Source: Epilithonimonas sp. JDS
GTDB lineage: Bacteria; Bacteroidota; Bacteroidia; Flavobacteriales; Weeksellaceae
Direction: 5' to 3'
DNA: 64,000 nt
NCBI RefSeq assembly: GCF_021261315.1
Contig: NZ_JAJSAX010000001.1
Span: 930,001-994,000, forward strand
Program-made: the position numbers and the translations under genes
Part shown: positions 10,700 through 62,112 of the stretch, piece by piece
Position numbering within the stretch: position 1 is the first letter of the stretch
Layout: each line of letters starts with the position of its first letter
Notes under the pieces: model-generated
Told to the model about the DNA's origin: nothing
The model's database searches: none
The model's input: only the letters and a program-made list of their open reading frames with translations

Positions 10700-10785
10700 T
10701 TTTTATAGATCGCTCCTCTGGAGCTTTAATTAGGCGTATAATTTTATTTCTACCAACAGGTCACCGCTCTGCGCTTTTTCATAAC
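10700..10785. repeat. GCTCC/GGAGC palindromic dispersed repeat (two degenerate units)
   Basis: GCTCC-TCT-GGAGC at 10712-10724 is followed by 'TTCTACCAACAGGTCACCGC' and a decayed palindrome CGCTCTGCGC. Read together they match the general plan of flavobacterial palindromic repeats (TTTCTACAAACAGGTC next to a GC-rich palindrome). A related pair lies at 27150-27226. Confidence 0.5.
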
Positions 10786-10917
10786 AGTGAAAATTTACTT
10801 ACGATATTTTGTCATAGCGCAGGAATCTCAAATTTAAATTGACCACGTTAAGCCAATTCATTAGTTTCTACAAAATGAAAAATCGTGGATTTATAATAAA
10901 ATGTTGATTACTGCGAA

Positions 10918-10992
10918 GCGCGCCCCGACTTGAATGGATCCCGATGTAAAATCGGGAGGGAATGGAAGGCGGATAAAGGCGCCCAAATAATT
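10918..10992 (+). repeat. Structured dispersed element, copy A (short form)
   Basis: Outer stem GCGCC (10920-10924) with GGCGC (10978-10982). Inner hairpin CCCGAT/ATCGGG. Conserved single-stranded blocks CCGACTTGAA and GGAATGGAAGGCGG, and a 3' tail CCAAATAATT. Same plan as the copy at 58787 but with a truncated inner stem. It lies between the end of the leftward hydrolase gene and the sigma operon promoter region. Confidence 0.65.
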
Positions 10993-17639: not shown

Positions 17640-17722
17640 TAGGTATAAATGATGATTTATAAGCGATAAACGATCCTTCGGCCGTTGATCAATTATCTTT
17701 TATGCTTTATCATTTATAATGA
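17640..17722. repeat. GATAAAT-type imperfect inverted repeat
   Basis: Left arm ATAAATGATGATTTATAAGC and right arm GCTTTATCATTTATAATG surround GATCCTTCGGCCGTTGATC. Similar AT-rich arms occur at 39531-39662 and 52158-52245. It lies between the TPP aptamer and the receptor gene, so it is part of that leader. Confidence 0.4.
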
Positions 17723-17792
17723 TGCATCCCTAAACAGCATTACCTGTTCCAGGTTCATTGGGTATAATCTCAGCTTGTGACAGCACCCCTTA
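17721..17792 (-). promoter_or_regulatory. TPP (thi-box) riboswitch
   Basis: The minus strand carries the complete thi-box core: AGGGGTGC, then CTGAGATTATACCC, then TGAACCTGG-ACAGGTAATGCTG, and a closing GGGATGC. These are the pyrimidine- and pyrophosphate-sensor helices of the TPP aptamer. It controls the TonB receptor that starts at 17588. The ~130 nt between aptamer and start is long enough for an expression platform. Confidence 0.93.
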
Positions 17793-17826
17793 AATTTCTG
17801 ACTGCGAAATTACAATTTTTTTCGAA

Positions 17827-55811: not shown

Positions 55812-55928
55812 TTTTAGTAGCCGGGAACCTGCTGTCCACTGTATCTTTTTTGTTTTTATCACGTTTGTCATTTCAAATTATTGAGTTGTCAAAAAAACAA
55901 AAAAGGATGCCGTTCCCATCAGGGCTAT
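55812..55928 (-). repeat. Structured dispersed element, copy C
   Basis: On the minus strand: TAGCC (5' outer stem) ... GGCTA (3' outer stem); inner stem CTTTTTTGTTTTT/AAAAACAAAAAAG (13 bp); conserved CTGATGGGAACGGCATCC and AGTGGACAGCAGG blocks; tail CTAAAAATC. It is opposed in orientation to copy D at 62029. It occupies most of the gap between ribH and the metallopeptidase gene. Confidence 0.75.
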
Positions 55929-55999
55929 TGATAAATCTCGTTCCAAAAAAAATTCATTAATATCAAAAAGAAATTATTAATTTTAATAAAAATAAAAAC

Positions 56000-56972: not shown

Positions 56973-57056
56973 TACCCCAGACGGGACTTGAACCCGTACG
57001 TCCTTACGGACACAGGATTTTAAGTCCTGCGTGTCTACCAGTTCCACCACCAGGGC
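56973..57056 (-). tRNA. tRNA-Leu (UAA)
   Basis: 84-nt class II tRNA with long variable arm. Anticodon loop CTTAAAA with anticodon UAA, GGTTCAAGTCCC T-loop arm, acceptor stem GCCCTGG/CTGGGGT (with wobble pairs). The 3' CCA is not encoded. Last of three tRNAs transcribed leftward. Confidence 0.95.
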
Positions 57057-57061
57057 AACGG

Positions 57062-57137
<76 letters not shown>

Positions 57138-57176
57138 ATAAAAAAAATTCCTAATTGCTTAGAAATTTTTTCATTG

Positions 57177-57258
57177 TGCGGATGAAGGGACTCGAACCCC
57201 CACGCGGTGAAGCACCAGATCCTAAGTCTGGCATGGCTACCAATTACATCACATCCGC
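57177..57258 (-). tRNA. tRNA-Leu (UAG)
   Basis: 82-nt class II tRNA. Acceptor stem GCGGATG/CATCCGC, anticodon stem-loop CCAGACTTAGGATCTGG with UAG, long variable arm, T-arm GGGGTTCGAGTCCC. First gene of the tRNA operon. Confidence 0.95.
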
Positions 57259-58786: not shown

Positions 58787-58900
58787 CTGCAGCCCGACTT
58801 GAACGGAAATCCTTTTTTGCGTGGTCTTGCGTTCTACTGAACTGGAAAAATTCTGCAAAAAAGATTGGGAGTGGAAGGCGGAAAAGCTGCCCAAATAATA
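58787..58900 (+). repeat. Structured dispersed element, copy B (long form)
   Basis: Outer stem GCAGC (58789-58793)/GCTGC (58886-58890). Inner stem CTTTTTTGC/GCAAAAAAG. Conserved CCGACTTGAACGG and GGGAGTGGAAGGCGG blocks, and a CCAAATAATA tail. The copy lies in the 261-nt gap between hutG and hutF, making the hutF upstream region largely repeat-derived. Confidence 0.75.
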
Positions 58901-61083: not shown

Positions 61084-61961
61084 CAGCAGAAAAACAAAAA
61101 TGGGTTCTCCTGATTGCATTATCCTTAATTTGGGGCTCATCTTTTATATTGATAAAAAAATCACTGGAACACTTCAATCCCTATGAAGTCGGTGCTTTGC
61201 GGGTTTTGATTTCCGGAATGGTTCTGATGCCTTATGCTATTGCGAAAATAAAACTGTTTCCAAAACGACATTTGAAATGGCTCATCATTGCAGCATTCAC
61301 TGGAAGTTTCATTCCAATGTTTCTTTTCCCGATGGCGGAAACTGAAATCAGCAGCAGTATTGCCGGAATTATCAATTCTATGATGCCGATATTTGTTATT
61401 ATTGTGGGTTCTTTGGTTTGGAAATTCTCGACGACCAAACGGCAATTACTGGGTGTTCTGATAAGTTTTGTCGGTGCTTGTATCTTGGCTTTGGGAAGTG
61501 GCGAAAGTGGTGAAATCAAAATCTATCCGATTCTGTTATTGATTCTTGCGGTCCTGCTCTATGCGATTTGTACCACCACTATCAAGTCAAAACTGCACGA
61601 AGTTCCGGCGATTCTAATGTCGGCTTATGTCTTTTCATTTGTCTTGTTCCTGCCATCATTGATTGCTTTGATTTTTGCAGGCTTTTTCAAAGATTTGACG
61701 TTGAATCAAAGTACGTTGGAAGGATTGGGTTTTGTGGCGATATTATCGATTTTCGGGACGGGATTGGCGATGATGATGAATTATAAATTACTGAGCATTT
61801 CGACGCCTTTATTTGCTTCAACGGTAACTTTGTTGATGCCGATTGTCGCCATCATCTGGGGGATTTTGGATGGTGAGAAATTGACGACGCAGCAATCTGT
61901 TGGAGCTTTGGTCATTTTGGCCGGGTTGATATTTTTGAGGAGTAAGCCGAAGGTGGTTTGA
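61080..61961 (+). CDS. EamA/DMT-family transporter
   Basis: A 293-residue drug/metabolite transporter-type membrane protein with ten helices in two EamA halves (WVLLIALSLIWGSSFILIKK at the start; IYPILLLILAVLLYAICTTT starting the second half). The TTG start overlaps the aat stop by 4 nt. Such proteins export or import small metabolites; the substrate is unknown. Confidence 0.82.
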   Translation: MTAEKQKWVLLIALSLIWGSSFILIKKSLEHFNPYEVGALRVLISGMVLMPYAIAKIKLFPKRHLKWLIIAAFTGSFIPMFLFPMAETEISSSIAGIINSMMPIFVIIVGSLVWKFSTTKRQLLGVLISFVGACILALGSGESGEIKIYPILLLILAVLLYAICTTTIKSKLHEVPAILMSAYVFSFVLFLPSLIALIFAGFFKDLTLNQSTLEGLGFVAILSIFGTGLAMMMNYKLLSISTPLFASTVTLLMPIVAIIWGILDGEKLTTQQSVGALVILAGLIFLRSKPKVV

Positions 61962-62028
61962 TGAGATTCCTACGGAATGACATTATCGTGTTTTTAATCT
62001 TGAATGTTTGATTTGATGACAAGAACCA

Positions 62029-62112
62029 TAGCCCTGATTGCAACGGCATCCTTTTGTGATGAGGAACGAAGAGCAAAAGATATAGTGGAAAGCAGGTTCC
62101 CGGCTACTAAAA
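62029..62112 (+). repeat. Structured dispersed element, copy D (short inner stem)
   Basis: TAGCC (62029-62033)/GGCTA (62102-62106) outer stem; inner CTTTTG/CAAAAG; CTGATTGCAACGGCATCC and AGTGGAAAGCAGG blocks shared with copy C. Downstream of the EamA gene, on the plus strand, opposite to copy C. Confidence 0.75.

Follow-up and report, generated by a model that had tools for sequence, protein, structure and literature searches.

The four folded elements in the window, a stretch of 64,000 nucleotides from Epilithonimonas sp. JDS, are copies of one family, Flavo-1 (RF01705), as judged by covariance model and architecture, and they include variants beyond the Rfam model. Flavo-1 is listed by Rfam as an sRNA (RF01705; Weinberg et al. 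2010). Our analysis recasts it from a Bacteroidetes sRNA listed without a function to a folded repeat of high copy number, with stems conserved in place and tips that turn over. The two arms genuinely covary, an indication that the strand folds.

The window copies and the architecture of the family

The initial annotation had proposed that the four copies form a single dispersed family and had named Flavo-1 as a comparison. The comparison was apt: Rfam cmscan of the window placed two copies above the RF01705 gathering score of 42 bits (55821-55930 on the minus strand, 62.4 bits; 62026-62103 on the plus strand, 53.7 bits) and one just under it (58787-58888, plus strand, 39.3 bits), and left the 10918 copy without any Rfam match at E<=1. 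From 29 tip-trimmed copies we built a covariance model (R2), which recovered all four copies and nothing else in the window at E<=1, namely 10918-10983(+) with 50.2 bits, 55818-55929(-) with 39.4 bits, 58787-58892(+) with 47.9 bits and 62027-62106(+) with 46.4 bits. The copies at 58787 and 62027 are among the 29 seeds and thus match by construction; those at 10918 and 55818 lie outside the seed, and one seed (L231) is nearly identical to the 10918 copy.

The copy at 58787-58893 (plus strand) is of type B. Its outer stem GCAGC/GCTGC (58789-58793/58886-58890) is followed inward by stem S1 CCG/CGG (58794-58796/58879-58881), an A.G mismatch (58797/58878), S2 CT/AG (58798-58799/58876-58877), the internal loop L1 TGA/GGA (58800-58802/58873-58875), S3 AC/GT (58803-58804/58871-58872), L2 (58805-58807/58867-58870) and S4 AATC/GATT (58808-58811/58863-58866), with an A/T-rich apex between the S4 arms. 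These stems are present in the minimum-energy folds of the plus strand, both as RNA and as DNA. The copy at 10918-10985 (plus strand) represents a short type B subtype, of which more copies occur elsewhere in the JDS genome. It keeps the family's order of S1, A.G, S2, L1, S3 and L2 (outer stem GCGCC/GGCGC at 10920-10924/10978-10982, S1 CCG/CGG, S2 CT/AG, L1 TGA/GGA, S3 AT/AT), and its apex is the perfect hairpin TCCCGAT-GTAAA-ATCGGGA (10939-10957). The other two copies are of type A', with outer stem TAGCC/GGCTA and S1 CTG/CAG: 55816-55930 (minus strand) has a long A/T hairpin as its apex, and 62027-62106 (plus strand) has S2 TT/AA, S3 AC/GT and a short apex CTTTTG...CAAAAG. The three kinds of outer stem named in the annotation are all found at these positions. 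Single-copy folding energies are not uniformly exceptional and do not decide between RNA and DNA: for 58787, 10918, 62027 and 55816, the z-scores are -1.01, -1.81, +0.29 and -2.48 with RNA folding of the Rfam strand, and -2.87, -2.89, -0.08 and -4.43 with DNA folding.

The wider anatomy was read from 186 copies, 95 of the 111 listed for JDS (110 plus the 10918 copy) and 91 of the complete relative G015. They were split into arms without use of complementarity, by a parser that prefers certain letters and could mask a few stem changes. Inward from a type-specific outer stem, a copy has the 3-bp S1, the A.G mismatch, the 2-bp S2, a 3x3 loop (GNA or TGA versus GGA), the 2-bp S3, a further purine-rich loop, S4 and lastly the tip, which varies; with its internal loops it measures ~65-120 nt. 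Among the tips are short perfect hairpins and A/T-rich ones, as well as two modules, GTGGCTGGAAAAGC(n)GGC and CCACAGC...GGGAAAAGC(n)GGCGCGAGG.

The outer ends differ among types. Types A and A' open with TAGCC and have S1 CCG/CGG or CTG/CAG. Type B, with GCAGC or GCGCC as its outer stem, was assessed in 65 copies by a script that took the best-pairing window, 4 of the 65 pairing at fewer than 5 positions; the outer pairs were GCAGC/GCTGC in 50, GCGCC/GGCGC in 6, GCAAC/GTTGC in 2 and GCGTC/GACGC in 1. In type C, S1 is mostly GGG/CCC, and 10 of 12 JDS copies have an added outer stem, outside the core at its 3' side. The script picked four of these (GCAAT/ATTGC, GCGTGA/TCACGC, GCGAT/ATCGC, GCGAC/GTCGC); the other six, for which it had selected different pairings, were identified by eye. 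A second hairpin usually precedes this stem, and type C has the look of an apparent three-way junction. The ends of type D, CAAC/GTTGG, were read by eye with integron attC sites in mind.

The JDS genome (4.17 Mb, 25 contigs) holds at least 110 RF01705 matches at E<=10, at least 70 of them over the gathering score. The search with a covariance model that the annotation had proposed returned at least 98 R2 matches at E<=0.01, and the union is at least 141 copies (105 RF01705 matches at E<0.1 and 36 found by R2 only). Both genome searches scored 150 of >1000 candidates, with more copies likely and a few weak ones perhaps false. At E<=1e-3, each of 23 genomes of the genus, JDS included, gives 46-124 matches, and the 14 control genomes give none. 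Across the phylum, a spread sample yielded matches at E<=1e-4 in at least 37 of 247 genomes. The matches are dense in a few genera; other genera of the same order were without matches, with at most 18 candidates scored per genome.

The likeness to Flavo-1 lies in the core helix, the internal loops, the phylum and the matches over the gathering score. The family differs from the listed sRNA entry in being a repeat of 141 or so copies at least, in tip and inner-block turnover at shared sites, and in further types beyond the Rfam model, namely the short B subtype (10918, unmatched) and type C with its added outer stem. Rfam cmscan of the window also gave a TPP riboswitch-like match at 17710-17800(-), with 46.5 bits below its gathering score of 54.3, and three consecutive tRNA genes at 56973-57258(-).

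Stem pairing and tip turnover at shared sites

Standard pairs fill 1285 of 1302 stem cells in the 186 copies of the two genomes. S1 occurs as CCG/CGG, CTG/CAG, GGG/CCC and GCG/CGC, S2 as CT/AG, TG/CA, TA/TA, TT/AA and CC/GG, and S3 as AC/GT, GC/GC and GT/AC; the mismatch position is A.G in 167 copies, G.A in 14 and something else in 5. In a hand-picked set of 29 copies, 100% of 290 cells were paired, compared with 70.0% after shuffling and 29-54% after sliding. Cells changed on both sides numbered 90 against a shuffled mean of 28.2, and the covariation score was 0.868 against 0.287 shuffled and 0.05-0.15 slid.

We further compared linkage between paired and unpaired segments. Among the 95 JDS copies, normalised mutual information was 0.97 for S2a-S2b, 0.85 for S3 and 0.83 for S1, all of them paired segments separated by the tip. 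S2a and S3a, only three bases apart on the same arm, shared 0.12 bits in these copies, equal to the shuffled mean of 0.12. Since these two segments are unlinked despite a common arm and shared ancestry, the pairing is not explained by inherited similarity. Some neighbours are not free: S1a-S2a reached 0.39 bits in JDS copies (shuffled 0.19, maximum 0.37), and S2a-S3a reached 0.16 bits in 93 pooled type-A-like copies (shuffled 0.05, maximum 0.17). These values are far lower than those of paired partners in the same sets, which share 0.80-2.13 bits. The covariation that the initial annotation had described is borne out.

The sites of the window copies were compared with relatives' loci, the named-genome loci of the neighbouring gene coming from Epilithonimonas, Chryseobacterium and unclassified relatives. 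The 58787 site carries a type B element with various tips in 8 of 10 named relatives' loci and is without one in L092 and L093. The 55816 site is occupied, with different tips, in L089 and L094 (both of the two named loci that reach the site) and in G015. At the 62027 site, a type A' element is present in all four named loci with both anchors among 10 examined (L088, L091, L094, L096), with the same tip in L094 and another in the other three and in G015. For the 10918 site, nine relatives' loci had both anchors and a readable gap: the tip is a different one in L219, L220, L224 and L228 (genomes G015, G008, G020 and G003), L223 and L230 (G013 and G011) retain the short tip of the JDS copy, with a second repeat inserted in their arms, L229 shows part of an element, and there is no element in L227 (G009 being among the genomes without it) and none in the displayed part of L221. 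In G015, the tip differs for all four window copies.

Genome-wide, 70 of the 95 JDS copies could be placed in G015 by both flanks, 4 by one flank and 21 by none. An element occupies 69 of the 70 sites, a figure biased by the choice of G015 stretches for holding an element (120 of 123 G015 matches covered). Two sites failed the parser; one (#94) is occupied by eye and the other (#82) is present in G015 without an element. G015 is ~7% divergent from JDS, and the flanks of 32 same-tip pairs had a mean identity of 92.6%; a 28% divergence of the 50-nt 5' flanks is a gapped-alignment figure and was set aside.

Tip identity in 68 ortholog pairs was >=0.86 in 32, 0.74-0.83 in 14 and <=0.71 in 22; among unrelated tips, the median identity is 0.61 and the 95% point lies at 0.80. 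The cut of 0.86 for a same tip was chosen after the values were seen and falls in no wide gap, since values run from 0.74 to 0.90. The 14 of the 36 "changed" pairs at 0.74-0.83 lie near the 95% point of unrelated tips and may reflect fast divergence instead. Between a third (22/68) and a half (36/68) of the measured sites changed tip while their flanks diverged by ~7%.

Stems behaved differently in the two classes of pairs. In 29 of the 32 same-tip pairs (three, with one 5' arm disrupted, were left out), 1 of 406 stem bases differed, and that one kept a G.T pair; L1a/L2a differed at 6 of 174 bases and the apex at 68 of 1625 (stem versus apex, Fisher p=4.5e-6). Among the pairs with a changed tip (36), both sides had changed in 35 of 108 stems, each of which was paired in both species; the 32 same-tip pairs had 0 of 96 stems with two-sided changes (p=1.3e-11). 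One-sided stem changes numbered 6 in tip-changed pairs, 4 of which lack pairing in one species or both, and 5 in same-tip pairs, 4 of them within the three disrupted-arm pairs. The initial annotation had taken covariation as a sign of selection or mechanism acting on a folded strand; the covariation is real, with the refinement that between JDS and G015 two-sided changes came only together with a tip change and not pair by pair. On the 5' side, the stems altered in tip-changed pairs were S3 alone in 10, S2 and S3 in 9, S2 alone in 3, other sets in 4 and none in 10, so that the outer limit of the exchanged block varies. Paralogs within G015 also combine near-identical tips with different stems (for example 1276234/519017, S3 AC versus GT; 1766580/1555672, S2 TG versus TA).

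Genomic context and competing explanations

For orientation, genes were taken as long ORFs and chromosome arms were fitted from sparse samples. In tandem-ORF spacers, the folding strand of JDS copies was antisense in 42 and sense in 15 (42/57, p=0.0024), and that of G015 copies was antisense in 47 and sense in 28 (47/75, p=0.034). The folding strand also tends to avoid the strand of positive GC skew, following the chromosome arm, in G015 (p=0.0018) and G022 (p=0.00045). This arm-strand bias was absent in convergent and divergent spacers of G015 (p=0.72), and no bias was seen in the JDS genome with a rough local skew (p=0.27). The fitted GC-skew switch points lie at 0 and 2.75 Mb in G015 and at ~3.02 and 0.68 Mb in G022, and with this sparse sampling dnaA (near 1723275 in G015, 439 in G022) lies away from them. 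The Rfam strand is favoured as the folding strand because of its purine loops and its excess of G.T over A.C cells (15 versus 5, p=0.041), both of which hold for RNA and DNA.

Upstream of type B, sequence is common to copies for ~10-15 bases only; in type A, a weak similarity of the flank reaches ~35 bases, and copies of type D, a small set, have more in common. The promoter-like TANNTTTG was not enriched upstream (16/95, compared with 13-21/95 at other sides and strands), and independent sRNA genes with their own promoters are therefore unsupported. In G015, the median distance of facing ORF 3' ends is 46 nt from the element's right end (19/66 no farther than 20 nt) and 128 nt from its left end (6/47 no farther than 20 nt). 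Convergent spacers hold 35 of 211 elements of two genomes and make up 6 of 88 gaps in a background drawn from G022 and the window (p=0.08 for the table as a whole); another 44 of the 211 elements are flanked by divergent ORFs.

Our preferred account, held tentatively and with a little less than even confidence, is that Flavo-1 is a dispersed cis-acting folded single-strand element, likelier DNA than RNA, maintained by selection at every site and reshuffled as paired inner blocks are exchanged. Each copy probably has a local role, as stems stay strictly paired while tips are often swapped. In its working form, the Rfam strand would be folded, with short stems stacked between purine-rich loops, a type-specific outer stem and an exchangeable tip, and selection would see the fold itself at every copy. 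We lean to action at the DNA level because of the antisense and arm bias, the little shared upstream sequence and the lack of a promoter-like excess; a transient hairpin in single-stranded DNA, rather than a stable RNA, might then serve as a protein site or as a fork or supercoiling element. Inner blocks would be copied among dispersed copies via rare ectopic recombination or template switching, with exchanges ending in shared arm sequence and stem-breaking combinations lost. At ordinary bacterial mutation rates, the observed frequency of tip change is rare per generation, so no dedicated exchange enzyme is required. It is rather improbable that a dedicated process acting on the folded strand swaps a nested block inside a chosen pair of internal loops, both arms together; if true, this structure-guided exchange would amount to a cassette system for hairpin tips throughout the genome, with ~100 or more sites. 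Against the preferred account, covariation and G.T tolerance fit RNA equally well, some neighbouring segments are linked, the arm bias is lost in convergent and divergent contexts, and the folding z-scores of 62027 lie near zero. A structured RNA, with transcribed copies acting as an sRNA family or as UTR parts in protein binding or RNA stability, is unlikely on balance but the most serious competitor. It would fit the strong covariation and the G.T(U)-type cells on the Rfam strand; the relevant passage of Weinberg et al. (PMC2864571) rates the motif as probably RNA and probably not cis-regulatory, and several 5' transcribed regions of F. psychrophilum are described as coinciding with matches (PMC9723704). 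The 141 or more copies in one genome, the short shared upstream flanks, the flat promoter count and the mostly antisense Rfam strand in tandem contexts speak against it, as does the description in the same source of F. psychrophilum matches as sense, antisense or outside transcribed regions (PMC9723704). A terminator or 3'-end element, whose complement strand would appear in transcripts downstream of genes and fold there, would account for the closer ORF 3' ends at the element's right end in G015. It is quite improbable, however, given that convergent spacers are not clearly enriched, that elements also lie between divergent ORFs, that the sense transcript would carry pyrimidine loops in place of the Rfam strand's purine ones, and that no U-tract was seen by eye after type B among the copies listed.

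The fold could also serve mobilisation only, with turnover as re-insertion or replacement by a transposase encoded elsewhere, as in a non-autonomous REP-, BIME-, ERIC- or MITE-like repeat. Consistent with this, the copies are dispersed, intergenic, patchy over the phylum and numerous in all 23 genus genomes searched, the JDS genome has Y1 transposases, and some orthologous sites are without the element. We nevertheless consider it improbable. None of the four Y1_Tnp genes of JDS (L003-L006) has an R2 match at E<=1 within ~1.5 kb on either side, the nearest Flavo-1 copies in the stretches examined being ~2.8 and 9.6 kb away. The REP-type element suggested by the initial annotation, in the sense of a repeat of these resident transposases, is thus rejected, all four loci being without an adjacent copy and, by eye, sitting among other repeats. 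Furthermore, 69 JDS copies are at sites also occupied in a ~7% divergent relative, and transposition alone does not predict stems conserved in place. Clean empty sites, which would reveal the target-site duplication of a MITE and were sought by eye for 58787 in L092 and L093, for 10918 in L227 and for #82 in G015, were not seen. Carriage by viruses or plasmids is unsupported within the searches made: IMG/VR gave no exact match to two Flavo-1 core patterns, the first of which matches 61 of 250 loci examined, and by blastn 62027-62106 had no match among plasmids and 58787-58893 none among phages. The least probable reading, a very remote one, is that of decayed functionless palindromes whose pairing was inherited from recent common copies. 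Related copies do share sequence, and joint block transfer alone would keep arms matched, but S2 and S3 assort freely in JDS copies with their partners still matched, and same-tip orthologs differ far less in stems (1/406) than in the apex (68/1625).

Related systems and neighbouring repeats

REP and BIME repeats, which go with RAYT (Y1_Tnp) transposases, are dispersed, intergenic and hairpin-forming, and REP elements have a conserved GTAG/GGAG-type tetranucleotide at the hairpin foot. Flavo-1 is likewise dispersed, intergenic and hairpin-forming; unlike REP/BIME repeats, it does not lie beside the four Y1_Tnp genes, and it has ~65-120 nt copies with internal loops and compensatory stem types. 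ERIC and BOX elements are modular, imperfect palindromes of ~100 nt between genes. They are similar in style, and compensatory stems and tip turnover were measured here for Flavo-1 only. Among the literature matches listed for palindromic or dispersed repeats in Flavobacteriaceae and Chryseobacterium, none was evidently about Flavo-1 elements.

Two questions become testable: what benefit a cell draws from more than 100 hairpins built alike, and by what route paired blocks pass among dispersed copies. The data also suggest that block exchange between repeats can give rise to strong 'covariation' between orthologs in the absence of stepwise compensatory mutation, which calls for caution in covariation tests on repetitive RNAs.

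Several other repeats were observed in the same genomes. By eye, the four Y1_Tnp loci each lie amid different short inverted repeats, such as GGTGCGAAGCACC, AGTCGC..GCGAC, TAGGATTTCATCCTA and CCGCTGCGCAAAGTCTCC, and perhaps represent four separate REP families in one genome. A second small repeat of the ACTTCGTTAGGTTTGA / CCTTCGACAAGCTCAGGATAAACT type lies inside Flavo-1 arms or loop L1, as if inserted, in L223, L228, L229, L230, L089 and JDS C1:692435. Upstream of the 10918 copy, a GGTCGCTCCTCTGGAGC...CACCGCTCTGCGG-type repeat unit is present at ~10705-10800 of the window and also in L220, with three tandem units there in G008. Near Flavo-1 copies in several species, the dispersed repeat GAGATTCCTACGGAATGACA recurs, sometimes with an inverted partner, at ~61960-61985 of the window and in L088, L089 and L094.
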